A stretch of DNA of 29,693 nt from a virus: positions 1 through 29,693 of the IMG/VR virus record IMGVR_UViG_3300008050_000202; one strand, given 5' to 3'. Position numbers and translations under genes: made by a program. Under the pieces are notes generated by a model. It saw nothing but the letters and a program-made list of their open reading frames with translations, had not been told where the DNA came from and did not search any database. Below, one piece after another: positions 1,671 to 27,840 of this stretch; the first letter of the stretch is position 1; each line of letters begins with the position of its first letter.

Positions 1671-2117
1671 TCACCCTCCGAGTGGTGCCACGCTCCTCTT
1701 CTTCCAGTCGGCCCAGCAATTCGGCGTCTCGTACACCCGGACGTGGACGACTTCGATGTTGTGCTGAGCCAACAACGCCTGCGAGGCACGCGCGATGAAC
1801 GCGGCGAGATTCTCCGCCGTCGGCTCACCCAAATCTTCGGGCATCGGACAGGTCTTGTGCCCGGAACCGGAAAGGAACGACCCAACGGGGTCACCGATCT
1901 TGAAGATGTACCCATGGTCGAGGTGGTCGTCGATCCACTTGCCGACGATCTCCTTCAAGACCCCGTAGTCGATCACCCTACCCGCGAAGTCCAGCTTCGC
2001 CCCGGCCACCGTCACTTCGGCGGTGTAGCGGTGGCCGTGGACAGACCGGCACTTCGACTCGTGGCGGGTGACGCGATGTCCGGCGTCGAATCCGAATCGG
2101 CGGGTGCAGGTGATCAC
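1671..2117 (-). CDS. queD: QueD, 6-carboxy-5,6,7,8-tetrahydropterin synthase
   Basis: QueD converts 7,8-dihydroneopterin triphosphate to 6-carboxytetrahydropterin, the second step toward 7-deazaguanines. The 148-residue protein has the full T-fold signature. DAGH gives His14; the CxxxHGH motif (CRSVHGH) gives catalytic Cys23 and zinc ligands His27 and His29. GRVIDYGVLK matches the usual G-x-V-x-D-[FY]-x-x-L-K; LDHGYI, PTAENLA and the C-terminal substrate-binding Glu in VYETPNCWADW are all present. Length is normal for the family. GTG at 2117 overlaps the TGA of the ParB-like gene by 4 nt (GTGA). The usual GMV is GRV here, a minor change. It closes the deazaguanine operon, far from FolE and QueE but on the same strand with no break. 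Confidence 0.93.
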   Translation of the reverse strand: MITCTRRFGFDAGHRVTRHESKCRSVHGHRYTAEVTVAGAKLDFAGRVIDYGVLKEIVGKWIDDHLDHGYIFKIGDPVGSFLSGSGHKTCPMPEDLGEPTAENLAAFIARASQALLAQHNIEVVHVRVYETPNCWADWKKRSVAPLGG

Positions 2118-2863
2118 GACAGGCGCTTCAACAAGTTCCGGACGGCGACATCCAAGCCGCCATCTGGGCTGTCGATCCCGAGGGACAGGGCCTCGACAAG
2201 CTCGGTATAGGTGTCGTGCTTGATCCGGCCTCGGATGTGCCCGATGGTCACGGCTACCAGCGACTCGCTCGGGTCGGTGAGCGTGTCGACGAGTTCTTCG
2301 GCACGTTCGGCAGCAGCCGCTTCGACCTCGTTCTTGTCGACCTCGGACGATGCCGCCGCGTTCATCACGGTGACCTCCGGATCCGTCGCGTAGGAGACGA
2401 GGTCCTCCAAGATGTCCTCGTCGAAGCCGGACAGGAGAAGATCGAGGTCGGTCCCTTCGACGACTTCGCTCAACTGGCCGAGGTAGTCGGACAGCTTCGT
2501 GTAGTCCCAATCGCCGTCGGCGTTGTTGTCGCGGAGAGCGACGAGACGCGCCTTCTCCTCGGGACCGTTGAAAAACGTGACGGGGATGCCCGACGCAGCG
2601 GAGCCGTCGTCGTGAACGAGTGCGACCCCGTCCTTCACCGCTTCCGAGATGACGGAGAAGCGCTGGTTGCCGCCGATGATGACGGTCTGTCCGTCCGGCG
2701 TCTTCCAGGCGAGGAGGGCACGGAACAAGCCCAACTCGTCGAGGGAGCGACGAAGCTCACGCCGCTCACGCTCCGAGAGCGACTGCCGGGGGTTGTCGTC
2801 GAAGCCAACGGCCTCCTTGGGGTCGATGTAGGCGTCGGCCTTGCAGACGGTGATCTTGTTCAT
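2114..2863 (-). CDS. ParB/DndB-like domain protein paired with DpdA
   Basis: This 249-residue protein carries a ParB/sulfiredoxin-type domain in its first 120 residues: NPR at the start of the domain (DDNPRQSLSERERRELRRSL), a conserved helix, then VIIGGNQR, which corresponds to the DGQ(H)R motif of ParB/DndB folds, and LRDNNADGDWDYTKL. The C-terminal half is acidic and helical and resembles nothing I know. ATG at 2863 overlaps the DpdA stop by 4 nt (ATGA), implying coupled translation. Bacterial dpd clusters also pair the transglycosylase DpdA with DpdB, which to my knowledge carries a related ParB/DndB-like domain. A role as the DpdA partner is therefore attractive. A plain transcription or partition factor is the alternative. 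The fold is fairly certain; the role is inferred. Confidence 0.75.
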   Translation of the reverse strand: MNKITVCKADAYIDPKEAVGFDDNPRQSLSERERRELRRSLDELGLFRALLAWKTPDGQTVIIGGNQRFSVISEAVKDGVALVHDDGSAASGIPVTFFNGPEEKARLVALRDNNADGDWDYTKLSDYLGQLSEVVEGTDLDLLLSGFDEDILEDLVSYATDPEVTVMNAAASSEVDKNEVEAAAAERAEELVDTLTDPSESLVAVTIGHIRGRIKHDTYTELVEALSLGIDSPDGGLDVAVRNLLKRLS

Positions 2864-3957
2864 GGTGCTGTCTCACTGGTGCGGTCGTAGATGTTCTTCC
2901 TGATAGCCGCCGACGCGCGAAGGGAGATCATCCCGTTCTCGGCGATGACGACATAGAGGATCCGAAGCGGCCCCTGGATGGACGCGAGCCAGTCGGTACC
3001 CGGCAACCCGACAGCCAGGAGGTTGTCGCGGAGCCGCGTCTGGTAGTCGACGTCGGTGCGCTTTGCGGCGGCTTTGTCTTGGATCGCGTTGTACCCCGTG
3101 ATGATCACGGCGGACGCTTCTGCTCGGGACATCCGGTTCCACCGGGACACGTTGATCCCGTAGCTCCGGAGGATGGGAAGCGCCCGATCGAGAGAAACGG
3201 TCGCGATGGTGTTGCCGATGCCCGTTTTCCGCTTGATGTGGTGGTACGGGTGTGGGAATCCGGGCGCTTTCTCGCGGGCACGCTCGTAGAGGGGCGCGAA
3301 CCCGAAGCGGGGGAGGCCCGCCCAAGACGAGGAATCTGCTGTGAGCCACGCAAGCTCGGTGTCCATCAGCATCCGGATGCTGGTCATCGCGAACCCGTGG
3401 CAGCCCGCTCCGTAGTGGAACAAGATGCGGGAGCACGCCCGGTAGAAGTCGTGCTGCGGCTTCGCCCGCTCGACCGCCGCCCCTGAGTGGTTGTCCATGC
3501 CGAGGGTTCCGAGGCCGACATAGGGCCAGTCCTTCGCGTACTCCTCCAGCATCTTGAACCCGTGGATCGGCTGGTGAACCCACAGCGGGTAGGCCCGATC
3601 CCCGATCACACGGACGATGCGAGCGAAGTTGCGTCGCATCTGCGGGGTGTTCCCGACATCGAGGTTCACGACGACGTCGATGAGCCCCTCGTCGGCGAGC
3701 CGCTGCGCGCACGCAAGGTACCGGCTCAGGTCGACCTCCAGGCCACGTCGCCGAATGGTGAACGCTCCGGAGTCGAACATGATGAACTTGCAGAACTTCC
3801 GCATCTGCCGAAGCAGCTTCACGGCGTTCTTGTAGTCGTTGACGAACAGCGCGTAGCTGATCAAGCCAGCCGTGTCCGGGTCCGGCACCCTGACGGGGGA
3901 CTCGACATCGTGAAGGATCTCGGTCCGGACGGAGTCGTGGTCGAAGGGATTACCCAT
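2860..3957 (-). CDS. dpdA: DpdA-like DNA guanine transglycosylase (TGT-type TIM barrel)
   Basis: TGT/DpdA enzymes swap guanine in a nucleic acid for a 7-deazaguanine base; phage DpdA members act on DNA. The 365-residue protein shows the DpdA pattern: FDSGAFT (Asp62, equivalent to DSGGFQ of TGT), NLDVG (Asp100), LWVHQP, VGLGTLG (the GGLAVG position of TGT) and a second acidic motif TADSSSW (Asp208), the place of the other catalytic Asp. The TGT zinc-binding C-terminal subdomain is not visible, as is usual for phage members. ATG at 3957 overlaps the radical SAM stop by 8 nt; its own stop overlaps the ParB-like start (ATGA). Together with FolE, QueD and QueE in the same operon this strongly indicates DNA, not tRNA, modification. 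The subfamily cannot be fixed without an alignment. Confidence 0.85.
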   Translation of the reverse strand: MGNPFDHDSVRTEILHDVESPVRVPDPDTAGLISYALFVNDYKNAVKLLRQMRKFCKFIMFDSGAFTIRRRGLEVDLSRYLACAQRLADEGLIDVVVNLDVGNTPQMRRNFARIVRVIGDRAYPLWVHQPIHGFKMLEEYAKDWPYVGLGTLGMDNHSGAAVERAKPQHDFYRACSRILFHYGAGCHGFAMTSIRMLMDTELAWLTADSSSWAGLPRFGFAPLYERAREKAPGFPHPYHHIKRKTGIGNTIATVSLDRALPILRSYGINVSRWNRMSRAEASAVIITGYNAIQDKAAAKRTDVDYQTRLRDNLLAVGLPGTDWLASIQGPLRILYVVIAENGMISLRASAAIRKNIYDRTSETAP

Positions 3958-4669
3958 CGTAGTTTCCCCAATCCTCCGGACCCTGGAAGACGAAGCCACG
4001 GCACTTGCCGCAGTCGACCTTCCCGCCGCCCTCGATGTCGACACAACAGAGCCCGAAGGAGCCGTCCCACAGGACGACCCGCCACGGCTTCCCGTCGGGG
4101 TAGCCGAGGTAGGAGCACCGACTGGAGCCGTCCTTTTCGACGAGCCCTTCGACGTGCCCCGCGTAGGACACAAGCTCTTTCTCGGGGGCATCGTCCGGCT
4201 TCCCGTCCTCTCCCGGCACCCAATGCTCGGTAGCGAGGAACCCATCGGGGATGTCGAACTCGCTGAGGCGGACCCCGAAGGGGTTGACGTGCAGCCGAAG
4301 CCACGCGAGCCCGAGGTCGAGGTACGCGTCCAGCTTCTCCTGCGTGAGCAGCTTGCCGTTGGTCGAGAACCCGACCCGCTTCCCACGTTCCGTCGCCATC
4401 CGGATGAAGTCGGGCAGGCGCTTGTGGAGCAGCGGCTCGGTGAAGTGGTGAAGGTGGAAGGACTCGTTCTCGACGACGTCGAGGACCACATCGAAGGTGT
4501 CCAGGGACATGAACCCCTTGGCCCGCTCGTGGTCCGGATGCGGGCAGTACGAGCACACGGCGTTGCAGTGGTTCGTGATGTCCACTTGGAACACGCGCAC
4601 CTTTTCCCCGGATGCCCTGAGCGAGAAGACGTCCGTTGCCGGCATCGAGAAGTCAGGCACGAGCATCAT
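3950..4669 (-). CDS. Radical SAM enzyme with SPASM/twitch-like C-terminal cysteines
   Basis: The 239-residue protein has the radical SAM cluster motif CX3CX2C (Cys35, Cys39, Cys42 in NHCNAVCSYCPHP). It also has the following barrel features TEPLLHKRLPDF and FSTNGKLL, and a C-terminal group of five more cysteines (185, 208, 209, 220, 223; RCSY ... GLCCVD ... DCGKC) that would bind an auxiliary Fe-S cluster, as in SPASM/twitch enzymes. It is not QueE, which is encoded separately. The ATG at 4669 (or 4666) lies inside the end of the upstream gene with AAGGA 8 nt before it, and the stop overlaps DpdA by 8 nt. Placement directly before DpdA suggests it modifies the 7-deazaguanine base or an attached group, but the reaction is unknown. 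Confidence 0.85.
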   Translation of the reverse strand: MMLVPDFSMPATDVFSLRASGEKVRVFQVDITNHCNAVCSYCPHPDHERAKGFMSLDTFDVVLDVVENESFHLHHFTEPLLHKRLPDFIRMATERGKRVGFSTNGKLLTQEKLDAYLDLGLAWLRLHVNPFGVRLSEFDIPDGFLATEHWVPGEDGKPDDAPEKELVSYAGHVEGLVEKDGSSRCSYLGYPDGKPWRVVLWDGSFGLCCVDIEGGGKVDCGKCRGFVFQGPEDWGNYDG

Positions 4670-5108
4670 CGGCGTAGTCCTTCGGACGTGTACGGAGCCC
4701 GGCGTGGATGGGGATCGTCGTGATGTCGAACGGGGTGCCGACCGAGATGTAGTCGCGCTTCTTGAATATGGACAAGTCCATCGTCGGTGCGCGGGCTACC
4801 AGCGTCAAAGGGGGCAAGGACGACCGGGCTTCCGTGAAGGGTACCACGTCCTCCCACAGCCGAGCGACGACGACCCGGAGAAGCGGGTAGTCGCCCATGA
4901 ACGACCGGAGCCAGTCCCAATCGTCGAACCGGTCGGAGCAGAAGATCTGCTTGACGCGTCCTTCGTCGACCATGAACCGGAGGTCGCTGTCGTCTTCGGC
5001 CGAGTCGACGAAGCCGGTGAGGAACCCGTGGCCTGGGTGTTCAACTTCGTGCCCGAACCAGATGCCGCCACGCTCTCCGACTCCGGGGTGCTTCTCTTCG
5101 CTCAGCAT
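4653..5108 (-). CDS. Unrecognised operon protein between glycosyltransferase and radical SAM genes
   Basis: The ATG at 5108 overlaps the glycosyltransferase stop by 7 nt. The 151-residue product is rich in aromatic and acidic residues (GGIWFGHEVEHPGHGFLTGFVDSAEDDSD, FDDWDWLRSFMGDYP) with several histidines near the N-terminus. It has no membrane segment, signal peptide or metal-binding cluster I can name. Its last 17 nt overlap the radical SAM start. The codon pattern is strongly GC-ending like its neighbours, so it is a real gene. I do not recognise it. Its position between a glycosyltransferase and a radical SAM enzyme makes it a candidate accessory protein of the modification pathway, and nothing more can be said from sequence. 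Confidence 0.6.
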   Translation of the reverse strand: MLSEEKHPGVGERGGIWFGHEVEHPGHGFLTGFVDSAEDDSDLRFMVDEGRVKQIFCSDRFDDWDWLRSFMGDYPLLRVVVARLWEDVVPFTEARSSLPPLTLVARAPTMDLSIFKKRDYISVGTPFDITTIPIHAGLRTRPKDYADDARA

Positions 5109-6118
5109 CGCTGCGCCTTCTGGAGGTAGCGGAGCATCTGCGAGATCGCGCCCGTCCACCGCATCGAGTCGTACCGGTAGCCGACGGGGGCTTGCAGCCG
5201 CTCGATCACCATGCCGGCGACGAAGTCGAGATCGCGCTCGTCGGGGTAGCGCTCGTCGAGAGGGAACGTCTCGCGGTACGAGAGCCGATCGGGGACGACA
5301 GGGTAGCACCCCAGCATCGCCGCCTCGACCATCCCGATCCCGAAGTTCTCCGCGACCGCGAAGGAGACGGCGACGCGCGAGTCGGCGAGGAGATCGTAGT
5401 AGCGCGGCTTCGGAAAATCGTGCTCGCGTGTCTTGACCCACTCGATCTTCGGCCCACGCCACCGGGCTTCGACCCGGTCGCGAAGGGACGCGAAGAGATG
5501 CGGCTGCTTGTCGTCGTGGAGGCGATGCGGGAACACGACCCGGTAGGAACGCATCGACCACTGACGGGACCGCCACGTGAACTCCGGATGAACCGGCAAG
5601 CCGGTGACGGCGATCTTCTCCGCACTGGCCCTGCCCGATTCGACGATCACGCTCTTGTGGTACTCGGTCGCGACGAACGCAAGATCGAGCGCGGCGAAGT
5701 ACCCTTGCTCGATTCCTTCGCACCACCGCTGCATGTTCACGCGGGACAGGAGGTCGTGGGTGTCCCACGACCCGGCGTGGAAGAAGCCGCCCATCTTGAA
5801 CTTCAGCCCAGCGACATCCCGCATGTACGCGAGGGCCGTGACCGTCGGGGTCCACGCGTCGAGGAACAAGACGAGGTCGTCGTCGTCGACCGCGCCAGCT
5901 TGCAGAAGCTCGACAAGGCGCATGGTCTGCGACGCTTTGTAGAAGTGCGTGTCGTAGCAGTCGAGGAAGTCGCCAACCTCGATGTCGCTCGCCGTCCGAT
6001 CGCCTTCGACTACTACTGGCTCGTACCCGAAGGACTGGACCTCTTCGGCGAACCACCGCCGCCATTGTCCCGTGTACCGGGCGTCGATCTCTTCGATCGG
6101 GACGAGAAAGACCTTCAC
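5102..6118 (-). CDS. GT-B-fold glycosyltransferase (GT4-like)
   Basis: The 338-residue protein shows two Rossmann-like halves. The N-terminal half opens with MKVFLVPIEE and includes DLVLFLDAW and DLAFVATEYHKSVIVES, then TGLPVHPEF at the domain junction, a common GT-B linker. The C-terminal half contains YDLLADSRVAVSFAVAENFGIGMVEAA (residues 240-266) and LGCYPVVPDRLSYRETFP. The E-x-F-G-I-x-x-x-E-A pattern is the nucleotide-sugar-binding motif of GT4 enzymes. ATG at 6118 overlaps the T-fold gene stop by 4 nt (ATGA). No membrane span is visible, so it is probably cytosolic. The sugar donor and acceptor are unknown. Lying between deazaguanine genes, it could glycosylate the modified base; surface-polysaccharide modification of the host is the alternative. 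Confidence 0.8.
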   Translation of the reverse strand: MKVFLVPIEEIDARYTGQWRRWFAEEVQSFGYEPVVVEGDRTASDIEVGDFLDCYDTHFYKASQTMRLVELLQAGAVDDDDLVLFLDAWTPTVTALAYMRDVAGLKFKMGGFFHAGSWDTHDLLSRVNMQRWCEGIEQGYFAALDLAFVATEYHKSVIVESGRASAEKIAVTGLPVHPEFTWRSRQWSMRSYRVVFPHRLHDDKQPHLFASLRDRVEARWRGPKIEWVKTREHDFPKPRYYDLLADSRVAVSFAVAENFGIGMVEAAMLGCYPVVPDRLSYRETFPLDERYPDERDLDFVAGMVIERLQAPVGYRYDSMRWTGAISQMLRYLQKAQRC

Positions 6119-6543
6119 GAGGCTACCTCTACGGTTGCGCCGTTCTCACCGTCCTCCCAGACGGATGCCGTCGCGGTCCATCCGGCCGGCAGAACTGGGA
6201 GGTTTTCGCCTTCCCGCCCGACCTCTTCCGGGTACGCGGGGAGGTCCAGATCGGGATCGTTTGCGGCGAACCTGATGGCGTGAGCAGCCAGGAGCATCGC
6301 CTGTTGCTCGCAGGACGCGCGCCCGAGATGGAGTCCCCACAACTCGGCGACGCCCTTGAGGTACCGCTGGAGCAGGATGAACTCGACGTCCCGATCTCCG
6401 TGGTCGACGGGAACGGTCACCTCCGCGTGGAAGGCATGGCGGTGCATCGACGAGAGGAACGCGACCTCTCGCGGGGCTTCGGGCCAGCAGTGGAGCCCCT
6501 CGTAGGCGAACCGGACGGTGACCGACTGGCGAACGACCCTCAT
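6115..6543 (-). CDS. T-fold QueD-like paralog of unknown reaction
   Basis: The 142-residue protein can be laid over QueD by eye: MHRHAFHAEVTV against HGHRYTAEVTV, DRDVEFILLQRYL against GRVIDYGVLKEIV, CEQQAMLLAAHAI against PTAENLAAFIARA, and ATASVWEDGENGATVEV against VHVRVYETPNCWADW. HGH thus becomes HRH. The CxxxHGH cysteine is missing (FLSSMHRH), so it cannot do classical QueD chemistry. ATG at 6543 overlaps the FolE stop (ATGA) and its stop overlaps the glycosyltransferase start (ATGA). It may be a deazaguanine-tailoring enzyme, for example a CDG decarboxylase, or a pterin-binding accessory protein. The homology is my visual inference; the reaction is open. Confidence 0.65.
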   Translation of the reverse strand: MRVVRQSVTVRFAYEGLHCWPEAPREVAFLSSMHRHAFHAEVTVPVDHGDRDVEFILLQRYLKGVAELWGLHLGRASCEQQAMLLAAHAIRFAANDPDLDLPAYPEEVGREGENLPVLPAGWTATASVWEDGENGATVEVAS

Positions 6544-7136
6544 CGGCAGCGGGCCATGTGATCCAACCACTCAGCCCGAGCCGACGACGACTCACGGAAG
6601 CGGCCATCGAACACGCACGTCGCCATCTTGACGCGCTTGTTGACGCCACGGCAAGCGACGCACAGGTGCTCGGCGATGATGCGGACTCCAACGGCAGACG
6701 GGTTGAGGTGCTCGGTGAGCGTGTCCGCGATCTGCTGGGTCATCCGTTCCTGCACCTGCAGACGCCGCGCGAACATGTCTACCAGCCGAGGGATCTTCGA
6801 CAGGCCGACGACCCGTCCCGACTTCCCCGGCAGGTAGCCCACGTCGGCGACGCCGCCGAAGGGCAGGAGGTGATGCTCGCACGTCGACCAGAACGGGATC
6901 GCTCCTACGGCGACAAGCTGATCGTAGCCACCGACTTCGTCGAAGCCGTCCGCGCCGTCGGAGGTCTTCAAGACCTCCGCAGGGTCGAGCCGGTACCCGG
7001 CAGTCATCTGCGCCCACGCCTTCGCGTACCGCTTCGGGGTCGACGCGAGCCCTTCGCGCTCGACGTCCTCCCCGATCGCGGAGAGGAGCATGGAGGCAGC
7101 GCGAGTCGCGGCCTTGTGGTCGAAGTCGTTGATCAC
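6540..7136 (-). CDS. folE: FolE, GTP cyclohydrolase I
   Basis: GTP cyclohydrolase I turns GTP into 7,8-dihydroneopterin triphosphate, the first step of 7-deazaguanine (and folate) synthesis. The 198-residue protein has every hallmark: EGLASTPKRYAKAW, zinc/active-site motif STCEHHLLPF (Cys86, His88, His89), GLSKIPRLVDMFARRLQVQERMTQQIADTL, and EHLCVACRGV with the second zinc Cys159. Length is normal for the core enzyme. GTG at 7136 overlaps the QueE stop by 4 nt (GTGA). A phage copy of this otherwise housekeeping enzyme usually serves to raise precursor flux for hypermodified DNA bases. The last residues (MARCR) are slightly extended compared with many homologs. Confidence 0.95.
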   Translation of the reverse strand: MINDFDHKAATRAASMLLSAIGEDVEREGLASTPKRYAKAWAQMTAGYRLDPAEVLKTSDGADGFDEVGGYDQLVAVGAIPFWSTCEHHLLPFGGVADVGYLPGKSGRVVGLSKIPRLVDMFARRLQVQERMTQQIADTLTEHLNPSAVGVRIIAEHLCVACRGVNKRVKMATCVFDGRFRESSSARAEWLDHMARCR

Positions 7137-7789
7137 GGCAGTCCCAGCATCTTGTGCGTTTGGACCGACACCCTCCAGCCGAGGGACGCGGCAAGTTTCA
7201 TGGTCATCGGCAGCGCGGCAGACCCGGTGTCCCCCCGGTCCATCGGCTGCAAGAAGCGGTGCTTGAAGTTCCACCCGGCCATCTCGTGGAGCGGCAGGGT
7301 CGTGGGGACGATGACCTTCAAGTCGTCGCCGTTCCGGACGACGATGTGCCCGATGGTCGCCGCATCCCCCATGAGGGGCTTCGGGCTCACGGTCACGTGA
7401 TCGAGGGCGTCGAGGATGTCCGCCTCGACCGACCCGTTGGTTTCGATCGCGACCTCGCACTCCAGTGCGACGTGAAGCTCGTTCACGAACACTTCGCCGT
7501 GACGGCGGCGAAGCTGGAGCGCGGGTTCGCCACCCGTCAAGACGATGAGCGGGTTCCGCATCCCTTCGGCGAGAGCAACGACTTGCTCGACGGCGAGGCC
7601 GGGGTCCATGCGTTCGCCCCCGACGAAGTCGGTGTCGCACCACTTCGCGCACTCCCCGAACCCTTCCCGCTTCTCGGGGTTGCCCGACCACAGGTTGCAT
7701 CCAGCAAGCCGGACGAAGATCGCGGGCGACCCGGCGCGTGAACCTTCGCCCTGGATGGTCCGGAAGATCTCTTTGACGCGGAGCCCCAT
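7133..7789 (-). CDS. queE: QueE, 7-carboxy-7-deazaguanine synthase (radical SAM)
   Basis: QueE rearranges 6-carboxytetrahydropterin into 7-carboxy-7-deazaguanine (CDG). The 218-residue protein starts with the typical VKEIFRTIQGEGSRAGSPAIFVRLAGCNLWSG and has CDTDF after the cluster, LTGGEPALQ, VAIETNGS and VTVSPKP. The three cluster cysteines are Cys31, Cys47 and Cys51, spaced CX15CX3C, one residue longer in both gaps than the CX14CX2C of many proteobacterial QueE enzymes. ATG at 7789 overlaps the stop of the small membrane protein (TGATG). The C-terminus has a tail (NFKHRFLQPMDRG ... ASLGWRVSVQTHKMLGLP) normal for the family. It supplies CDG to DpdA or to later steps; QueC is not encoded in the window. 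Confidence 0.94.
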   Translation of the reverse strand: MGLRVKEIFRTIQGEGSRAGSPAIFVRLAGCNLWSGNPEKREGFGECAKWCDTDFVGGERMDPGLAVEQVVALAEGMRNPLIVLTGGEPALQLRRRHGEVFVNELHVALECEVAIETNGSVEADILDALDHVTVSPKPLMGDAATIGHIVVRNGDDLKVIVPTTLPLHEMAGWNFKHRFLQPMDRGDTGSAALPMTMKLAASLGWRVSVQTHKMLGLP

Positions 7790-8061
7790 CAGCCCACCAA
7801 CCGGAGCGCCCACATGAGGGCCTCCGCGATCAAGATCGCGATGACGACCGTCGCGCCGATCTCGCCCAAGATCCGCTTCGGGACAACATGCTTGGTAGGC
7901 GGGATCATCAGGAGCGCCTGTTTGAACCGGCCACCGTCGTTGACGAGAAAGGTCGTCGCGACCTCCCACCCTTGGGTGAGCAGCGCTGCGAGCGCGGGGT
8001 CGTTGGCGGCAGACGCGAGGTCTTCGCCGTCGAGGTAGTAGATGGTCGGATGATGTTCCAC
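7789..8061 (-). CDS. Small protein with GWE motif and one C-terminal membrane segment
   Basis: GTG at 8061 has AGAGG 5 nt upstream and lies 31 nt after the UDP-GlcNAc epimerase stop. The 90-residue product has a soluble N-terminal domain. Its LTQGWEVATTFLVNDGGRFKQALLMIPP resembles the small DUF4177-type fold, in which a GWE motif precedes two strands. A basic linker (PPTKHVVPKR) follows, then one membrane helix at residues 67-87 (EIGATVVIAILIAEALMWAL). It would sit in the membrane with its N-terminal domain in the cytoplasm if the positive-inside rule holds. Its role within a base-modification and sugar operon is unclear; it might tether a partner to the membrane. Function not recognised. Confidence 0.6.
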   Translation of the reverse strand: MEHHPTIYYLDGEDLASAANDPALAALLTQGWEVATTFLVNDGGRFKQALLMIPPTKHVVPKRILGEIGATVVIAILIAEALMWALRLVG

Positions 8062-11044: not shown

Positions 11045-11073
11045 CTTATACCCCGGCCGATCCAGATTCGTTG
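11045..11073 (-). promoter_or_regulatory. Leftward promoter for the modification operon
   Basis: On the minus strand CAACGA (11073-11068) is followed by a 17-nt spacer ending in GGGG and then TATAAG (11050-11045). The -10 element overlaps the TAA of the primase-helicase gene. It differs from the CCACG-type -35 sequences of the other leftward sites by one base. It would drive 11012 and the chain down to at least 1671. Recognised by similarity to sibling sites; no experimental support. Confidence 0.55.
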
Positions 11074-16664: not shown

Positions 16665-18140
16665 CTACAGGGTAACGGCGACCCTGGACAGTTCCTGTCC
16701 GGGGAACATCTCCAGGGCCTTGTTGAGCGGAACAGGGCCGACGGGGGAGGCGTTGAGCGCCTTCCGGTACGCCGACATGCGGGTCCGGGCGTGCTTGGCA
16801 AAGACTACCCCGCCATCGGCGAGGTCGAAGAGGATCGGCGGACGACCAGAAGGCCGCATGAGCCGGCCGACACGCTGGAGCGTGCCTCGGTCGGCTTTGC
16901 CAGGGATGGCGTTGATGAGGCAATCGAGCGCAGGAACGTCCAACCCCTCGTCGGCAAGCTGAGTCGCCACGAGCACCTGTAGCTCTCCGCTCCGGAGATC
17001 CGCGATCTTCCCGCGACGCTCCCCGACACCGGACTGGCCCGATACCGCCTCGACGTTCACCCCGTGTCGGCGCAGAAGGTCGCGAATCTTGTACGCCCCG
17101 TTGACGCGCGGAACGAGGATCAGCGTCGACCGCTGGTCCTTCGCCGCTGCGAGCCCGAGGTTCAAGATCACCCCGTTGCGGGCGTGCGAATGGGCAGCAG
17201 CCGACACGGCTCGCACCCACTGGAACCGGAACCGGTCACCGTCCCAAGTCCAGTGCTGGTTGCCTTCCTCGCCGAAGTCTGGAGGAGTCTTGTGACTCCA
17301 CGAGGACTCGACCACGACGATGTCCGGCCGGACGAGGAAGCCGTCGTCGACTAGCTCATCGGGCGTGACCGTGTGGACGCGCGGGCCGATCAGGTAGTCG
17401 ATCATGAACTCCAGCCCATCGGAGCGGCTCGGAGTTGCGGTGAGCCCGAAGCGGTACCGAGCCGGGCACCGCTCGGTGAGCGACTTCCACGAAGGCGCGG
17501 CGACCCGGTGACACTCGTCGAAGACGATGACGCCGCACGATTCCAGAGCACGCTCGCCACCCGTAGACCGGTGGAACGATTGCGGCGTGCCGACGGCGAC
17601 GTCTCCGGGGCGCATCGGGCGCTTCACGAAGCCGGGCTTGACCGGGTTCATCCCGTGTTGCGCGAGAGTGTTGAACCACTGGTCGACGATGTCTTTCGTC
17701 GGGCCAACCACGCAGGCCGACTCCCCGGTCGACTCGATCGCGGCGCTGCCGATGAAGGTCTTTCCGCCGCCGCACGGGATGACGACGTAGCCCTGCACCG
17801 CCTGCACGAGTCGCTCGACGGCTTCACGCTGGTACGCACGGAGGCCGTCCATCGGCTCGCCGGGGTCAACGCTCTTGTGCTTCGTGACGCACGATTCCCA
17901 CGTGATCGGACGCTTCGCGAGCCGCGCCGCTTCCCGTACCAGCGGGAGCGCGCCGCGCGGAACGACGGCACCGTCTTCCTCGTACAGCTTGATCTTCTTC
18001 GGGACGCCCCACGTGGGGAGGCCCCGCGCGGTCCGGTTGCGGTAGTCCGGGTTGTCGAACGTGAGGACCGCGCGCATCCGATCGATGACGTTGGGCGGCG
18101 CTCCCACGAGTCGAAGGGAGCTGCCGACGATGACCTTCAT
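16665..18140 (-). CDS. SF2 helicase (XPB/UvsW-like DECH helicase)
   Basis: The 491-residue protein has the ordered motifs of a superfamily 2 helicase: the Q-type LRAYQREAVERL, Walker A PCGGGKTFIG (123-131), VVGPTKDIVDQW, DECH box (VIVFDECHRV, 208-211), FGLTATPSR (232-240), LVATQLADEGLDVPALD (motif V) and LQRVGRLMRPSG (motif VI). The C-terminal half is normal length. Similar phage helicases such as UvsW resolve branched DNA and replication intermediates. ATG at 18140 has AGGG 7 nt upstream. It is the first gene of the leftward block, read from the promoter at 18239-18267, and its mRNA leader carries a stable hairpin. No nuclease domain is present, so a type III restriction subunit is unlikely. 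Confidence 0.88.
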   Translation of the reverse strand: MKVIVGSSLRLVGAPPNVIDRMRAVLTFDNPDYRNRTARGLPTWGVPKKIKLYEEDGAVVPRGALPLVREAARLAKRPITWESCVTKHKSVDPGEPMDGLRAYQREAVERLVQAVQGYVVIPCGGGKTFIGSAAIESTGESACVVGPTKDIVDQWFNTLAQHGMNPVKPGFVKRPMRPGDVAVGTPQSFHRSTGGERALESCGVIVFDECHRVAAPSWKSLTERCPARYRFGLTATPSRSDGLEFMIDYLIGPRVHTVTPDELVDDGFLVRPDIVVVESSWSHKTPPDFGEEGNQHWTWDGDRFRFQWVRAVSAAAHSHARNGVILNLGLAAAKDQRSTLILVPRVNGAYKIRDLLRRHGVNVEAVSGQSGVGERRGKIADLRSGELQVLVATQLADEGLDVPALDCLINAIPGKADRGTLQRVGRLMRPSGRPPILFDLADGGVVFAKHARTRMSAYRKALNASPVGPVPLNKALEMFPGQELSRVAVTL

Positions 18141-18159
18141 GTCGGTTCCCTGGAAGGGG

Positions 18160-18227
18160 GGGCTCCTGGCGACGCATGGATCAACGAAGACCCGTTTTGG
18201 AAGAAGAAGGAGAGCCGCCAGGAGCCC
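18160..18227 (-). promoter_or_regulatory. Leader stem-loop of the helicase transcript
   Basis: The arms 18160-18171 and 18216-18227 form a perfect 12-bp inverted repeat (GGGCTCCTGGCG and CGCCAGGAGCCC), with a 44-nt loop. In the leftward mRNA from the 18239 promoter the stem starts a few nt after the expected start site and ends 19 nt before the ATG at 18140. The loop holds the complement of the ribosome-binding element used by several rightward genes. Whether it acts in cis or in trans is unknown. Confidence 0.6.
18198..18218 (+). promoter_or_regulatory. Orphan ribosome-binding element without a gene
   Basis: This rightward sequence, GGAAGAAGAAGGAG plus flanks, matches the ribosome-binding leader of the sigma-like gene (27820-27840) in 20 of 21 positions. 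No ATG, GTG or TTG follows at a usable distance; the next bases are CAGGAGCCC. It is either a remnant of a lost rightward gene or, read on the minus strand, an anti-RBS segment in the helicase leader. Confidence 0.55.
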
Positions 18228-18238
18228 TTCTCAACCCC

Positions 18239-18267
18239 TTTATACCCCGCCCGATCAGGGAGCGTGG
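18239..18267 (-). promoter_or_regulatory. Leftward promoter for the helicase gene
   Basis: Minus strand CCACGC (18267-18262), 17-nt spacer ending GGCGGGG, then TATAAA (18244-18239). It is the best -10 element in the window. It lies back to back with a rightward site at 18272-18300, so this 268-nt gap is a divergent control region. Confidence 0.65.
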
Positions 18268-18271
18268 ATTC

Positions 18272-18300
18272 TTTCCCTCCCGGCCCGTTTCGGGTATAAG
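18272..18300 (+). promoter_or_regulatory. Rightward promoter of the divergent region
   Basis: TTTCCC (18272-18277), a 17-nt spacer ending CGGG, then TATAAG (18295-18300). The -35 is a poor match; the -10 and its CGGG prefix match the other sites. It would begin the mRNA of the primase-like gene. Confidence 0.45.
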
Positions 18301-18309
18301 AACGAGCGA

Positions 18310-18333
18310 CCCCCGACGTTGACGCGCCGGGGG
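18310..18333 (+). other. Hairpin at the 5' end of the rightward leader
   Basis: CCCCCG (18310-18315) and CGGGGG (18328-18333) form a 6-bp stem with a 12-nt loop, beginning a few nt after the expected start of the rightward transcript. No T-run follows, so it is more likely a stabilising 5' structure than a terminator. Nothing else but the short 18374 frame is seen between it and 18409. Confidence 0.35.
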
Positions 18334-18373
18334 CCGATGCCGACCATCACTTGAACCCGCAGGCCGACGCCCC

Positions 18374-18412
18374 ATGATTACCCGCAACAGCGCGACAGGG
18401 CAAGCCACGTGA
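18374..18412 (+). CDS. Possible 12-codon leader peptide
   Basis: An ATG-started 12-codon frame (MITRNSATGQAT) ends in a TGA that overlaps the GTG of the next gene (GTGA), the same coupling pattern used by real neighbours. The ribosome site is poor (AGG 10 nt upstream). It could couple translation to the primase-like gene or be chance. Confidence 0.25.
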   Translation: MITRNSATGQAT

Positions 18413-19863
18413 GGCCCGTCGTCGTTGCGGCACTCGGGTTTGCGCCCCCTGGAGGGGCAGAAGTCCTCGACGTGATGCGGCGCGACGATTCGACGGGGAG
18501 AGCGGCACGCGTACTCGTCTGGTCGCTCGCGCAGAAGGAACAGCGTGTCGGCGGGGAGCGGTTCTACCGCGAGATGTGCCGCTCCTACCTCCGCAAAGTC
18601 GCAGTCGGGTTGAGCGACTACGCGACGCGACGGGCATGGGCGGCAGTCGGCTCCATCCTCGGGTGGACCGAAGTAGACTGGCGGGGCGCAAAGTCGGCGG
18701 GAGCGAAGCTCAGGCAGATCGCGTTCAAGACCGCCAGATGGGGGAAGCATCTCCTTCTCCCCGAAGCCGCGCTCCAAGGTGTTCGTTGGGCTCTCGCTCA
18801 CGCAGACGTCGAAGGGCTGCTCGCCGGGCTGTTCAAGAAGCCTACCGATGCAGGCGACTGGAAAAAGGTCAACGGGAAGACGCCTCGGGCACCGTCGCCC
18901 GCGAGCGGGACCAGGGGGAAGACGACGGCGGTCATCTGTCCCTTCCACGACGACCGCCACCCCTCGCTCATCCTCTTCGCCAACTACGGAGGGGAGTCGG
19001 GCGGGGGCTGGTGTGCCGCGTGCGGTGTACGTGTAGCGGCACGATTTGCCGGCGGGATTGAAGTCCGGGCAACGACCCCTTCCGGATTCCGTCTGCATCG
19101 GGATCCCCGACCGGTTCAACCGCAATATAGAACCCGGAGGGCCGGCCAGATCGAGCCGGGCCGACGTGAGGCCGTGACCGGAGGGGTCTTGGGGGACGGT
19201 CTACAAGGAAGCAGACTACGAGGAACCCTCTATGAGGTACTTCGGAGAGCCGAACGCCGGGCCGACTGGCCCTCCGAACAGCGAAAGGCGTGGGCCGCGT
19301 CCGCTTACGTAGCCCTCGGGCGCGCCACCGACCGGCAGGCGCTGCCGGACCGGCTCTATGCAGTCTCCGACATGGTCGCGTGCGCGTGGTCCCCGCTCCC
19401 GAACGGGGGGCAACGCCCTACATCGTGGAAAGCCGTCGCGCAGCGCAGGATCGTGTTCGACTTCGATGACTTCGATGACATCCAGGGGGACTACGCGGAG
19501 GCGATGATGCGCGTCCTTCGGCGCGACCCCTGGCTCGCCGGACCCGCTGCCGTCGTGCAGACCTCCTGGGAAGGCATCCAAGTCGTCGCCGATCTCGCGG
19601 ACCCGGAAGGCGACCCGGAAGCGTTCTTTGCCGACGAGGAAGTCATCGGCTGGTACCAGTCTCTCGCTCAGAGGCTCATGCGTGCGGCCCACCGATCAGG
19701 CTGCAAGGGCGGAAAGGTCGATCTGAGCGCAGCAGCGGCAGGGCGCTGGGCTCGCCGACCGGGTTGGAGGATGAAGGACGGGATCCCCGTTCGTGCGCGC
19801 CTCGTAGCCATCTCGTCCAGCGAAAAAAGTTCTCGCGTACAGGAAAAAACTGGTAGCGAGTAA
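18409..19863 (+). CDS. Primase-like protein (CHC2-type zinc finger plus AEP-like core), frame irregular
   Basis: The open frame of 484 codons begins with GTG at 18409 (AGGG 8 nt upstream). Residues 177-205 form a zinc-binding motif (CPFHDDRHPSL ... GWCAACG: Cys177, His180, Cys202, Cys205) as in CHC2 primases. Near residues 348-356, IVFDFDDFDD resembles the catalytic aspartates of archaeo-eukaryotic primases; VVQTSWEGIQVVADL and RWARRPGWRMKDG match later AEP motifs. Residues about 205-284 (19021-19260) are odd. Third-position GC drops in this frame while the +1 frame looks coding but contains TAG and TGA. A compensated double frameshift, a decayed gene, or two abutting genes are possible. It would be the second primase in the window. 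Function is fairly likely; integrity is uncertain. Confidence 0.6.
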   Translation: MRPVVVAALGFAPPGGAEVLDVMRRDDSTGRAARVLVWSLAQKEQRVGGERFYREMCRSYLRKVAVGLSDYATRRAWAAVGSILGWTEVDWRGAKSAGAKLRQIAFKTARWGKHLLLPEAALQGVRWALAHADVEGLLAGLFKKPTDAGDWKKVNGKTPRAPSPASGTRGKTTAVICPFHDDRHPSLILFANYGGESGGGWCAACGVRVAARFAGGIEVRATTPSGFRLHRDPRPVQPQYRTRRAGQIEPGRREAVTGGVLGDGLQGSRLRGTLYEVLRRAERRADWPSEQRKAWAASAYVALGRATDRQALPDRLYAVSDMVACAWSPLPNGGQRPTSWKAVAQRRIVFDFDDFDDIQGDYAEAMMRVLRRDPWLAGPAAVVQTSWEGIQVVADLADPEGDPEAFFADEEVIGWYQSLAQRLMRAAHRSGCKGGKVDLSAAAAGRWARRPGWRMKDGIPVRARLVAISSSEKSSRVQEKTGSE

Positions 19864-19881
19864 CGGGGATCGGGGTACTAT
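19854..19881 (+). promoter_or_regulatory. Rightward promoter ahead of the 19940 gene
   Basis: TAGCGA (19854-19859), 16-nt spacer containing AACGG and ending CGGGG, then TACTAT (19876-19881). It overlaps the stop of the previous gene (TAA 19861-19863). Same family as the sites at 23950, 25891 and 27772. Confidence 0.6.
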
Positions 19882-19939
19882 TCTTGTGAGGCGAGGGGAC
19901 GACCCCCGAACCCCGAAACGGAAGAAGAAGGAGAATCCG

Positions 19940-23949: not shown

Positions 23950-23977
23950 TAGGAACCAGTAACGGACGGGGTATTAT
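23950..23977 (+). promoter_or_regulatory. Rightward promoter ahead of the MoxR-like gene
   Basis: TAGGAA (23950-23955), 16-nt spacer with AACGG and ending CGGGG, then TATTAT (23972-23977). It is followed by GGAG 6 nt before the ATG at 24006. Same family as 19854 and 25891. Confidence 0.6.
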
Positions 23978-24005
23978 TCTGGTGGACAGAAGAACGGAGA
24001 GCCAG

Positions 24006-25151
24006 ATGACCCACCAGATGCCCCTCGACCGACTGCTCGCTATCGAAGCGGAGTTGAACGCCTGCTTCTACGAGCGCGCGAGCGAGATCCGCTCGCTGCT
24101 CGTCGCCATCAGCGCGGAGGAGCACGTCCTCCTGCTCGGCCCTCCGGGTACGGGCAAGAGCGCGCTCGCCAAGGCGTTCTCCGACGCCCTCGGCGTGAGC
24201 AACTTCTTCCAGGTGCTGATGACGCGCTTCTCGACCCCGGAAGAGGTGTTCGGTCCGCTGTCGCTCTCCAAGCTGGAGGAGGACAAGTTCGTCCGCGTGA
24301 CCGACCGCTACCTCCCCGCCGCCGAGTTCGCGTTCCTCGACGAGGTGTTCAAGGCCAACGGCCCCATCCTCAACGCGATGCTGACGGTCCTCAACGAGCG
24401 CGAGTTCGACAACGATGGTCGGGTCGACTGCCCCCTGCAGATGGCGATCGGCTGCTCCAACGAGACGCCGCCGTCGAACGAGGACATCTCCCTGGACGCG
24501 CTCTACGACCGCTTCGTCCTGCGCCACTGGGTGTCGTACATCAAGGACCGTGACGCGCTCATGTCCCTCGGCCGCTCGTCCGGCAAGCTGGGCACGTCCA
24601 CCGTCTTGCAGCCGGGCGACCTCGACGCGATCCGCGATGACGTCGCGAAGGTCGACATGCCCGACTCGGTGCTGGAGGCGATCCTCGACATCATGGACGA
24701 CCTCCGACGCAACCACGGCATCGAGATCAGCGACCGGCGCTTCTTGAAGCTGATCAAGCTGACCCGCGCCAACGCGTACCTCAACGGGCGCAACACGGCG
24801 AGCAAGCACGACCTCATGGTCCTCGCCAACGCGATGTGGGACGAGCCCGAGGATGCGGGGACCGTCAACGGCGTCGTCGCGTCGCACGTGAGTGCCGCGC
24901 TGGAGCAGGCCCTCAAGCTGATGGACGCGGCTACCGAGATCTACTCGGCCCTGGACCTCCAGTCGGTCGAGGCCTCCGACGCGCCCCGGCTCGCCGACGC
25001 CAACGACCAGTTGGAGCAGGTGCTCCGACAATTGTCCGGCTTGACCGACAAGGACCTCACCGCCGACGTCGTATCGAAGGTGACCCGGATGAAGAAGAGC
25101 ACCGCCCGCGCCGCCCGCCGCTGCCTCTCCATCGGGATGTCGGTGTTCTAG
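24006..25151 (+). CDS. MoxR-family AAA+ ATPase
   Basis: MoxR ATPases act as chaperones that pair with VWA proteins. The 381-residue protein has Walker A GPPGTGKS (residues 45-52), TRFSTPEEVFGPLSL, the Walker B FAFLDEVFKANGP (108-120), sensor MAIGCSNETPPSNED and the arginine/lid region LYDRFVLRHW. The C-terminal domain is helical with many Asp/Glu (DAVLEAILDIMDD-like), typical for the family. ATG at 24006 is chosen over GTG 23982 because GGAG is correctly spaced. The gene ends at TAG 25149-25151. After this TAG the same frame stays open for 26 more codons to TGA 25230-25232 and looks coding. The partner VWA gene lies at 25943. The substrate is unknown. Confidence 0.88.
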   Translation: MTHQMPLDRLLAIEAELNACFYERASEIRSLLVAISAEEHVLLLGPPGTGKSALAKAFSDALGVSNFFQVLMTRFSTPEEVFGPLSLSKLEEDKFVRVTDRYLPAAEFAFLDEVFKANGPILNAMLTVLNEREFDNDGRVDCPLQMAIGCSNETPPSNEDISLDALYDRFVLRHWVSYIKDRDALMSLGRSSGKLGTSTVLQPGDLDAIRDDVAKVDMPDSVLEAILDIMDDLRRNHGIEISDRRFLKLIKLTRANAYLNGRNTASKHDLMVLANAMWDEPEDAGTVNGVVASHVSAALEQALKLMDAATEIYSALDLQSVEASDAPRLADANDQLEQVLRQLSGLTDKDLTADVVSKVTRMKKSTARAARRCLSIGMSVF

Positions 25152-25218
25152 CCGACCGAAGACGACAAGAAGCAACTGACCCACGCGATCATCGCGATTT
25201 TGAAGAAGGAGAAGGGAC

Positions 25219-25515
25219 ATGGAACGCCGTGAGATGACCCAGGAGCAGTACGAGAGCCTCATCGAGAAGTTCTCGGGGCTCGGTGGCGACCGGGAAGCCG
25301 AGACGACCCTCTGCTTCAACAAGCAAGACGAGCACGACGGCTACATCTCGTTCTGGTCGAACCGTGGCCGGGACGTGGCGCGGACGCTGAAGCGCATCAG
25401 GCCAAAGGACATCCTGTGGTGGCAGGCCCACGGGGGCGGGCTCTTCTTGAAGATCAAGCTGAGCGCCGTGCGCGGACCGTGGTCCATCACGAAGGTCACG
25501 GCGGGGAAGGACTGA
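25219..25515 (+). CDS. Small unknown protein (98 aa)
   Basis: ATG at 25219 is preceded by GAAGAAGGAGAAGG, the usual purine-rich element. The 98-residue product starts helical and acidic (MERREMTQEQYESLIEKFSGLGGDREAE), then has a beta-rich part (TTLCFNKQDEHDGYISFWSNRGRDVARTLK) and ends with a glycine-rich strand pair (HGGGLFLKIKLSAVRGPWSITKVTAGKD). No domain was recognised. Its stop overlaps the next gene by 1 nt (TGATG). It is part of the MoxR/VWA region and may be a small accessory protein; no direct evidence. Confidence 0.6.
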   Translation: MERREMTQEQYESLIEKFSGLGGDREAETTLCFNKQDEHDGYISFWSNRGRDVARTLKRIRPKDILWWQAHGGGLFLKIKLSAVRGPWSITKVTAGKD

Positions 25516-25859
25516 TGGAGGACCGTGCGCCGACGATCGGAGAGACGATCGAAGCGATGACCCCCGGCACCGCCTTCGGGTTCTCCATCGCGATGTTCCC
25601 GATCGAGTTGAGCTTTGCCCTCTGGCGAGCGTTCGCGGTCTGGAAGGCGTGGACGTGGCTCGCCGAGCCGGCGGGTGCCCCGAACATCGCCTTTGGTGTC
25701 TTCTTCGGGCTCTACTACGTCCTAAGCGTCATGCTCACCGGGACTGCCGACACCCTCGCTACGGAAAGACTGACATTCAGCGCATGGATCAGTCACCGAC
25801 TGGCGTCACCGTTGATGGTCCTCATCACGGCGGCTTTGATCGAGTGGATGGTCTACTGA
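25515..25859 (+). CDS. Small membrane protein (114 aa) next to MoxR/VWA genes
   Basis: ATG at 25515 overlaps the previous TGA (TGATG). The 114-residue product has three hydrophobic stretches: residues 21-47 (AFGFSIAMFPIELSFALWRAF), 59-77 (IAFGVFFGLYYVLSVML) and a C-terminal one (LASPLMVLITAALIEWMVY). With three spans the N- and C-termini would sit on opposite faces. A charged segment separates the last two spans. No signal peptide. The family is not known. It is placed between the MoxR-like ATPase and the VWA protein, where it could anchor them to the membrane, as MoxR systems often work on membrane or cell-envelope complexes. That is an inference from context. Confidence 0.65.
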   Translation: MEDRAPTIGETIEAMTPGTAFGFSIAMFPIELSFALWRAFAVWKAWTWLAEPAGAPNIAFGVFFGLYYVLSVMLTGTADTLATERLTFSAWISHRLASPLMVLITAALIEWMVY

Positions 25860-25890
25860 AAAAAAGTCGAGAAGAACCCCGTTGTCGACG

Positions 25891-25919
25891 TAGACCTATA
25901 ACGGGGTTCGCGGTACTAT
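25891..25919 (+). promoter_or_regulatory. Rightward promoter ahead of the VWA gene
   Basis: TAGACC (25891-25896), 17-nt spacer including AACGG, then TACTAT (25914-25919). Ribosome site GGAAGGAAGGAG lies 6 nt further on and the ATG is 25943. A run of seven A's (TGAAAAAAAG) follows the stop of the previous gene. Confidence 0.6.
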
Positions 25920-25942
25920 TCGGAGGAAGGAAGGAGAATCCG

Positions 25943-27373
25943 ATGCGCCCGAAGCGACAGAAGCGCCACAACTACGCCACCGGCCGGGTCAAGGCCCAAG
26001 CGTTCACGGCAACCCGCTGGCAGCGATTCCTCTACGAGCAGCGCGTGGAGATCCCCAACTCGGAGATCCAGAAGGCGCGCAACAAGCTCGGACGTCGCCT
26101 CGCTGACGTCGGGATGCACGACGGGAAGGTGCGGGACTGCCGGAACGAGGCCGACCTGTTCGCGGGCGAGGTCTACTCCCGCCTCTACGATTCCCCCGAA
26201 GCCCTCACGAGCGCGACCGTCGAATGGGCGGGCGTCGCCCACGACGCGCTGGAAACGACGACCGAGTTCAAGTCCCTGTCCGAGCAGGTCGACGGCGACC
26301 CCGACATGGCCGCCATCGCTACCGCGAAGATCGTGGACAAGGTGTCGGACATGGCCGAGAAGCTGGCGAATGGGATGCCGGACAACTCTCCGGTCGACAT
26401 CGAAGACGTCGCCCGTTCCGCGATGCGTCAGGCGTGTCGCGAAGCGACGGGGGACGTCGCCGAGGCCATTGGCCTCCTCGGCGGGCTCGCGCCGGGCCTC
26501 GCTGCCGCGCCTCCCGCGCACGAGCAGCACGACCCTCGCCGGATGCGCCTCGCGCAGATGCTCATCGACAACGAGGAGCTTCGGAACATCCTTCGCTTGG
26601 TCGGTAAGTTCACGCGCATCGCCACGTCGACCCGCAAGAAGCGCGGCGACAACGTTCGCGAGGAGGTCGTCGACATCGAGCGCGGGAACGACCTCGCGCG
26701 GGCGCTCCCGGTGGAGTTGGCGAAGCTCCGACACCCCAAGCTCCGGACCCTGTTCTTCAAGAACTACATCGAGCGGTCCCTCGTCCAGTACCAGTTGGGC
26801 GGCAAGGAGCCCGTCGGTCGCGGCGCGATGGTCTGCCTCCTCGACGAGTCCGGTTCCATGCACGGCGAGCCGTCGCAGTGGGCGCGGGCCGTCGGCATCG
26901 CCATGACCCTCATCGGGAACAAGGAGAACCGGGCCGTGACGGTGATGGGATTCGATACCCGCGTCAAGACGGCCTTCCGCCTCGACGAAAAGGGCCGGGC
27001 GTGGTCGATGAACCCGCACACGCTGGAGGTCAAGTCGGAGATCGGCGACGTCACCGACATGATCCTCGCGATCTCGGAGCAGGGGTGCGGCGGGGGCACG
27101 TCCTTCGACGGTCCCGTCACCGCCGCGATCGACTTCACGCAGATGCCGGGAGGCGATGCCGACGCCGACTTCGTGCTCGTCACCGACGGGCACGCGTCCC
27201 TGAGCGACCACGTCGCCGAGCGTATCCAAACCCTCCGCGAAGAGAAGGGGCTCCGGGTCTTCGGCATCACGATCAACGGCGGCGAGGTGACCCGCGCCGT
27301 CAAGCGCCTCTGCGACGAGACGACCGACATCGCCATGCACGGCATCGATTCCGTCGGAGCGACCCTCCCGTGA
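25943..27373 (+). CDS. VWA-domain protein (CobT/ViaA-like), partner of MoxR ATPase
   Basis: The 476-residue protein has an N-terminal helical region (to about 290) rich in Arg/Ala/Glu and a C-terminal von Willebrand A domain with an intact MIDAS site. DESGSM (Asp301, Ser303, Ser305) follows VCLL; Thr386 lies in GCGGGTSFDG; Asp415 lies in FVLVTDGHASLSD. Such proteins bind a divalent metal ion and work with MoxR-type ATPases. The start at 25943 follows GGAAGGAAGGAG; a longer frame upstream is a shadow of the membrane gene. The GTG of an 11-codon frame overlaps its TGA. Known VWA/MoxR pairs assemble or remodel protein complexes; the phage target is not evident from this sequence. Confidence 0.88.
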   Translation: MRPKRQKRHNYATGRVKAQAFTATRWQRFLYEQRVEIPNSEIQKARNKLGRRLADVGMHDGKVRDCRNEADLFAGEVYSRLYDSPEALTSATVEWAGVAHDALETTTEFKSLSEQVDGDPDMAAIATAKIVDKVSDMAEKLANGMPDNSPVDIEDVARSAMRQACREATGDVAEAIGLLGGLAPGLAAAPPAHEQHDPRRMRLAQMLIDNEELRNILRLVGKFTRIATSTRKKRGDNVREEVVDIERGNDLARALPVELAKLRHPKLRTLFFKNYIERSLVQYQLGGKEPVGRGAMVCLLDESGSMHGEPSQWARAVGIAMTLIGNKENRAVTVMGFDTRVKTAFRLDEKGRAWSMNPHTLEVKSEIGDVTDMILAISEQGCGGGTSFDGPVTAAIDFTQMPGGDADADFVLVTDGHASLSDHVAERIQTLREEKGLRVFGITINGGEVTRAVKRLCDETTDIAMHGIDSVGATLP

Positions 27374-27405: not shown

Positions 27406-27782
27406 ACCGTCGCGACCGTCACCTCCTGATGCTCGTCTCGGAGCTTTCGGACCTCCGCGAGTGGGAGCCGGTCGGCTCGCGCATGGAAGCGGTCAAGCTC
27501 CAGATCGCGCATATCGAAGGGCTCACCGACGACGAAGCCCGACGCATCGAAGTGATGGCCGTGAACTGGCGACGCATCCACCCCTCCGTCCGGGCGTTCT
27601 ACGCCGTTTGGGCGAAGCGAGACACAACCGTCTCTGTCGCCCTCTGGCGCGTCCTCAACGTCGGGGCGACCCAGACCCCGCCCCCGCCCCTGGACGGCTG
27701 GCAGAGGGGCGCTCTGCGCCGTCTCTGGACCGAAACCTACGGGTGTCCCTGCCCGTTCGACCTCTACCCCGTTGACCGTTAG
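27402..27782 (+). CDS. Unrecognised small protein (126 aa) ahead of the sigma-like gene
   Basis: GTG at 27402 is preceded by AAGGGG with 8 nt and overlaps the TGA of the mini-ORF. The product is mostly helical with many Arg/Trp (NRRDRHLLMLVSELSDLREWEPVGSRMEAVKLQIAHIEGLTDDEARRIEVMAVNWRRIHPSVRAFYAVWAKRD), a Pro-rich loop (ATQTPPPPLDGW) and a Cys pair near the end (YGCPCPFDLYPV). Its final codons overlap the -35 element of the following promoter (TTGACC 27772-27777). It does not match a family I know. The helices resemble a small DNA- or RNA-binding bundle; this is a guess. Confidence 0.6.
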   Translation: MNRRDRHLLMLVSELSDLREWEPVGSRMEAVKLQIAHIEGLTDDEARRIEVMAVNWRRIHPSVRAFYAVWAKRDTTVSVALWRVLNVGATQTPPPPLDGWQRGALRRLWTETYGCPCPFDLYPVDR

Positions 27783-27800
27783 TAACGGTCGGGGTACAAT
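27772..27800 (+). promoter_or_regulatory. Rightward promoter for sigma-like/RecU genes
   Basis: TTGACC (27772-27777), exactly 17 nt, then TACAAT (27795-27800), with GGGG just before the -10 and AACGG in the spacer. It is the closest match to a housekeeping sigma-70 promoter in the window. The -35 lies inside the 3' end of the previous gene. The start site is expected about 27807. Confidence 0.75.
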
Positions 27801-27840
27801 ACGTGAAACCCGTTCCCCCTGGAAGAAGAAGGAGAACCGC

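Follow-up and report, generated by a model that had tools for sequence, protein, structure and literature searches.

A phage helicase-leader hairpin that may act in cis and appears partly built from a duplicated ribosome-site leader

Does the hairpin in the leader of a viral helicase gene regulate genes on the opposite strand, or does its complementarity to their ribosome sites have a simpler origin? The hairpin lies in a 268-bp divergent gap that separates the two halves of the window, by which we mean the whole stretch of viral DNA analysed here (Table 1). The left half is transcribed leftward, with genes for 6-pyruvoyl tetrahydropterin synthase, GTP cyclohydrolase I, radical SAM proteins and sugar epimerases; the helicase belongs to this half too, as do a primase-helicase, a Sak4-like protein and an exonuclease. 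Transcription of the right half runs rightward, through genes for a DUF6744 protein, a Dam methylase, MoxR, VWA and a sigma-70 region 2 protein. The 6-pyruvoyl tetrahydropterin synthase, GTP cyclohydrolase I and radical SAM genes, at 1671-7792 (-), are by their sequences consistent with a 7-deazaguanine DNA-modification pathway, and the 2860-3912 product, which has no Pfam match, might be a candidate transglycosylase partner. At 24006-27373 (+) this phage genome carries a pair of genes for a MoxR AAA ATPase and a VWA-domain protein, and relatives of the latter are scarce among sequenced phages (10 records by tblastn).

Table 1. Positions of the window and of the features of the helicase leader and related sites
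Feature	Position	Strand	Remarks
Virus record window	29.7 kb (29,693 nt)		IMGVR_UViG_3300008050_000202, positions 1 to 29,693
Superfamily 2 DNA helicase gene (ResIII/DEAD + Helicase_C), downstream of leader	16665..18140	-	Pfam and PHROG matches; ATG at 18140
Stem 3' arm (CGCCAGGAGCCC in leader RNA)	18160..18171	-	Inverted repeat
44-nt loop: CU tract and smaller inner hairpin	18172..18215	-	From folding
Start-less copy of rightward leader/Shine-Dalgarno element GGAAGAAGAAGGAGAG	18199..18214	+	Exact 14-mer; sigma-leader likeness 18186-18227
Stem 5' arm in helicase leader RNA (GGGCUCCUGGCG)	18216..18227	-	+ strand reading overlaps broken start-codon region of putatively duplicated leader
Leftward promoter-like element ATCGGGCGGGGTATAAA	18240..18256	-	GGGTATAA at 18240-18247; predicted RNA start ~18233
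Divergent rightward promoter-like GGGTATAA	18292..18299	+	For gene starting near 18409
Sigma-like gene leader and first codons	27805..27848	+	Closest relative of loop copy; best predicted pairing partner

The hairpin is as the first-pass annotation described it: the arms, GGGCTCCTGGCG and CGCCAGGAGCCC, are fully complementary over 12 bp, and the spacer between them is 44 nt long. The window contains two perfect 12-bp inverted repeats with a spacer of up to 100, where shuffles give 0.73 (P 0.19); the second (22284/22325) lies within a gene. By comparison, a 12-bp repeat appeared in only 13 of 20,000 shuffles of the helicase leader (about 6.5e-4). The repeat is therefore ordinary genome-wide and unusual for the helicase leader. 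The predicted fold of the leftward leader RNA has an energy of -40 kcal/mol (z -3.1), and all 200 shuffles are less stable. Rfam covariance models gave no match in 17900-18600 (E up to 1) or across the window at gathering scores, and there was no tRNA match. Two candidate roles were ruled out: a terminator at the 18160 stem, which has no U tract on its 3' side, and a repeated operator, since neither arm has a further copy in the window at up to one mismatch.

The position of the hairpin is informative because of the promoter-like motif beside it. The sequence GGGTATAA occurs at 18240 (-), 18292 (+) and 11046 (-), three copies where 0.04 are expected, and each stands directly upstream of a gene in the matching orientation. 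The leftward pair, consisting of the helicase promoter and a site at 11046-11062 that precedes another leftward gene, has 17 nt in common with one mismatch (ATCGGSCGGGGTATAA). This motif and its 17-nt near-copy predict that the helicase mRNA starts at ~18233, which would place the beginning of the stem ~6 nt from the mRNA 5' end; the hairpin, just past the leftward promoter motif, would form a stem-loop at the 5' terminus of this mRNA. Stem-loops of this kind are known as ompA-type stabilisers, which are found at the 5' termini of bacterial and phage mRNAs. The helicase leader resembles them in having, given the predicted start site, a strong stem a few nt from the RNA 5' end and upstream of the gene start, but differs in that its loop is 44 nt long and carries, in reverse, a copy of the ribosome-site leader of another gene.

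That reverse copy is not a chance motif. Read as leftward RNA, the loop contains CTCTCCTTCTTCTTCC, the reverse complement of 18199-18214, as had been claimed. There are just four exact copies of GGAAGAAGAAGGAG in the window, and each is on the + strand (18199, 19920, 20903 and 27821); allowing up to 3 mismatches gives 20 matches, against 2.4 in shuffles. Three of the exact copies stand before a start codon; the copy at 18199 has none and is the sole start-less member among the long intergenic + strand purine leaders. The identity to the sigma leader noted in the first pass, 20 of 21 positions between 18198-18218 and 27820-27840, was reproduced by blastn, and the similarity reaches beyond the ribosome-site core: with the purine core excluded, a likeness to the sigma leader persists in the flanks of the 18199 copy (P 0.0016-0.004), which show none to the flanks of gpB or gpC (P 0.34-0.88). 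The gapped alignment, GAAGACCCGTT----TTGGAAGAAGAAGGAGAGCCGCCAGGAGCCC with GAA-ACCCGTTCCCCCTGGAAGAAGAAGGAGAACCG-CATGACCCC, spans a broken start codon, CATGACCCC to CAGGAGCCC, in which the sigma ATG is AGG in the loop copy.

Likeness that runs through a broken start codon favours a duplicated leader fragment, and the remnant of a rightward leader, offered in the first pass as the plain alternative to regulation, is accordingly the better supported of its two explanations. The likeness begins near the predicted sigma transcript start and leaves the sigma promoter outside, and our data, in the form of this single genome, favour a duplicated leader fragment that lacks both start and promoter. Reading frames of the gap around the 18199 copy have no significant similarity to proteins of the window. 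The 3' end of the fragment forms one arm of the hairpin. One possibility for the origin of the opposite arm is template switching, by which inverted repeats are copied from one to the other (PMC7202029).

We propose, with about even confidence, that this element is an ordinary stem-loop at the mRNA 5' end, derived in part from a duplicated leader and acting in cis; its fold and start site are predicted, and we infer its duplication and its cis function, the likeliest role. The helicase gene and the rightward gene block would be separated by two divergent promoters, of which the leftward one would begin the helicase mRNA at ~18233, with a 12-14 bp stem-loop at its front. The loop and 5' arm would hold, reversed, the fragment duplicated from the sigma-gene leader, which, having neither promoter nor start codon, would no longer serve as a rightward ribosome site. 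The stem-loop would act only in cis, affecting the stability or accessibility of the helicase mRNA, and its complementarity to rightward ribosome sites would be a by-product of the duplication. We prefer this reading because both arms and the motif were confirmed and the predicted hairpin is strong, stands at the 5' terminus and follows a statistically supported promoter motif, and because the flank likeness is specific to sigma, the alignment crosses the former start codon, and the copy is uniquely start-less. Three findings count against it: the copied stretch is missing the sigma promoter; a 12-bp stem surrounds the motif, at about 6.5e-4 for the helicase leader; and the 14-nt core is exactly kept while its flanks have drifted, which could reflect selection, as none of ~5 changes falls within it, an outcome with a chance of roughly 9% by hand estimate.

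Appreciably less probable, but the strongest competitor, is pure accident, in which a neutral duplicated leader fragment has met a chance inverted repeat and neither functions at the RNA or DNA level. The 0.73 such repeats expected per window and the second repeat observed, which sits in a gene, are in keeping with this, as are the start-less motif copy and the arms without further copies. Against it, the repeat is rare inside the helicase leader (those 13 shuffles in 20,000) and lies immediately at the predicted 5' end of the RNA, in a fold with z -3.1.

We consider it unlikely that, as first suggested, the helicase-leader loop acts as an antisense RNA in trans by which leftward transcription silences rightward genes. 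In such a model the loop would pair with the sigma, gpB and gpC mRNAs at their ribosome sites and block translation. Folding calculations indicate that pairing between the loop and the sigma leader is physically possible. Predicted net pairing energies are -18.2 kcal/mol for sigma, -11.2 for gpB, -9.2 for MoxR, -7.7 for gpC and -7.3 for VWA, and the CU tract is nearly unpaired, costing 4.2 kcal/mol to open, such that accessible complementarity to the target ribosome sites is present; full pairing, however, needs 11-20 kcal/mol of stem-loop to be opened. Moreover, any duplicated leader read in reverse would pair likewise. Since reading a duplicated rightward leader from the opposite strand yields complementarity automatically, the complementarity carries no independent weight, and the rank of sigma as strongest partner is predicted equally by duplication from sigma.

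A further property of trans-acting antisense RNAs is that they are discrete, with a 3' end of their own. Terminator prediction gave no such end: there is no terminator-like site 3' of the stem on the - strand, and the sole site in the leader is a weak 6-pair one at 18228-18211, which does not exceed the rate expected by chance. The prediction thus yields no separate short RNA, and the element would remain attached to the helicase mRNA, although a short RNA may arise by processing of the longer transcript. Staphylococcus aureus RNAIII and other regulators with C-rich loops mask Shine-Dalgarno sequences (PMC2837412), a precedent for ribosome-site-masking loops, and the phage hairpin shares with RNAIII a pyrimidine-rich loop complementary to the ribosome sites of several mRNAs. 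In contrast to RNAIII, it belongs to an mRNA leader and has neither a terminator nor a predicted transcript of its own, and its complementarity is explained by duplication. The phage antisense RNAs P22 sar and lambda OOP are short discrete RNAs (review PMC12197685); like them, the helicase leader is a phage-encoded RNA complementary to the start region of a phage mRNA, but it has no predicted 3' end, and sigma is a predicted target.

The fullest form of the antisense idea, which we regard as improbable, is that the sigma leader was copied backwards into the helicase 5' hairpin and now works as an antisense loop, restraining sigma and other rightward genes as leftward transcription rises. Were antisense action true, a trans regulator could arise by a simple path, in which a leader is duplicated into an mRNA hairpin of the opposite strand, and the two halves of the phage genome would be coupled. 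Mainly, the case illustrates how a reversed, duplicated ribosome site can mimic a designed antisense RNA. A DNA-level element, either an operator or part of a replication origin among replication genes, has a similarly small chance: the inverted repeat does lie in the divergent intergenic region between the helicase and rightward genes, but the window holds no second arm copy at one mismatch or fewer, and GC skew shows merely a weak local rise, with no marked switch exactly at the hairpin.

To look for relatives, the helicase, DUF6744 protein, VWA protein, primase-helicase, Sak4 and MoxR were compared with IMG/VR and the helicase also with GTDB genomes, and phage and plasmid records were searched at the DNA level, the phages at the protein level too. 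No close relatives were found in these collections, only distant homologues about 20-37% identical, too divergent to be used for leader comparison. Mycobacteriophages gave weak 36-nt matches (E 0.1) to 18309-18344, which is not part of the hairpin; these were treated as chance. Searching for both exact arms separated by 30-58 nt gave no match. The ribosome motif ahead of an ATG, a pattern that itself picks start-bearing copies, matched at least 120 loci; among the matches listed, none was related, none had the motif between a 10-bp inverted repeat, and none of these start-selected loci had a second, start-less copy.

A 12-codon ORF (MITRNSATGQAT) at 18374-18412 (+) ends in a TGA that overlaps the GTG start (18409) of the first rightward gene, making a leader peptide with translational coupling possible. 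TAACGG followed by GGTA within 9 nt occurs five times against 0.04 expected, and the rightward promoters at 19861-19883, 23960-23979, 25899-25921 and 27783-27802 (+) have TAACGG-N(2-5)-SGGGTAYWATWC-like elements in common; the leftward promoters do not have TAACGG, which suggests two promoter classes. Within 27765-27800 the promoter of the sigma-like gene adjoins a perfect palindrome (GACCGTTAgTAACGGTC) with a TAACGG...GGGGTA element on both strands, which is perhaps a divergent promoter or an autoregulation operator.
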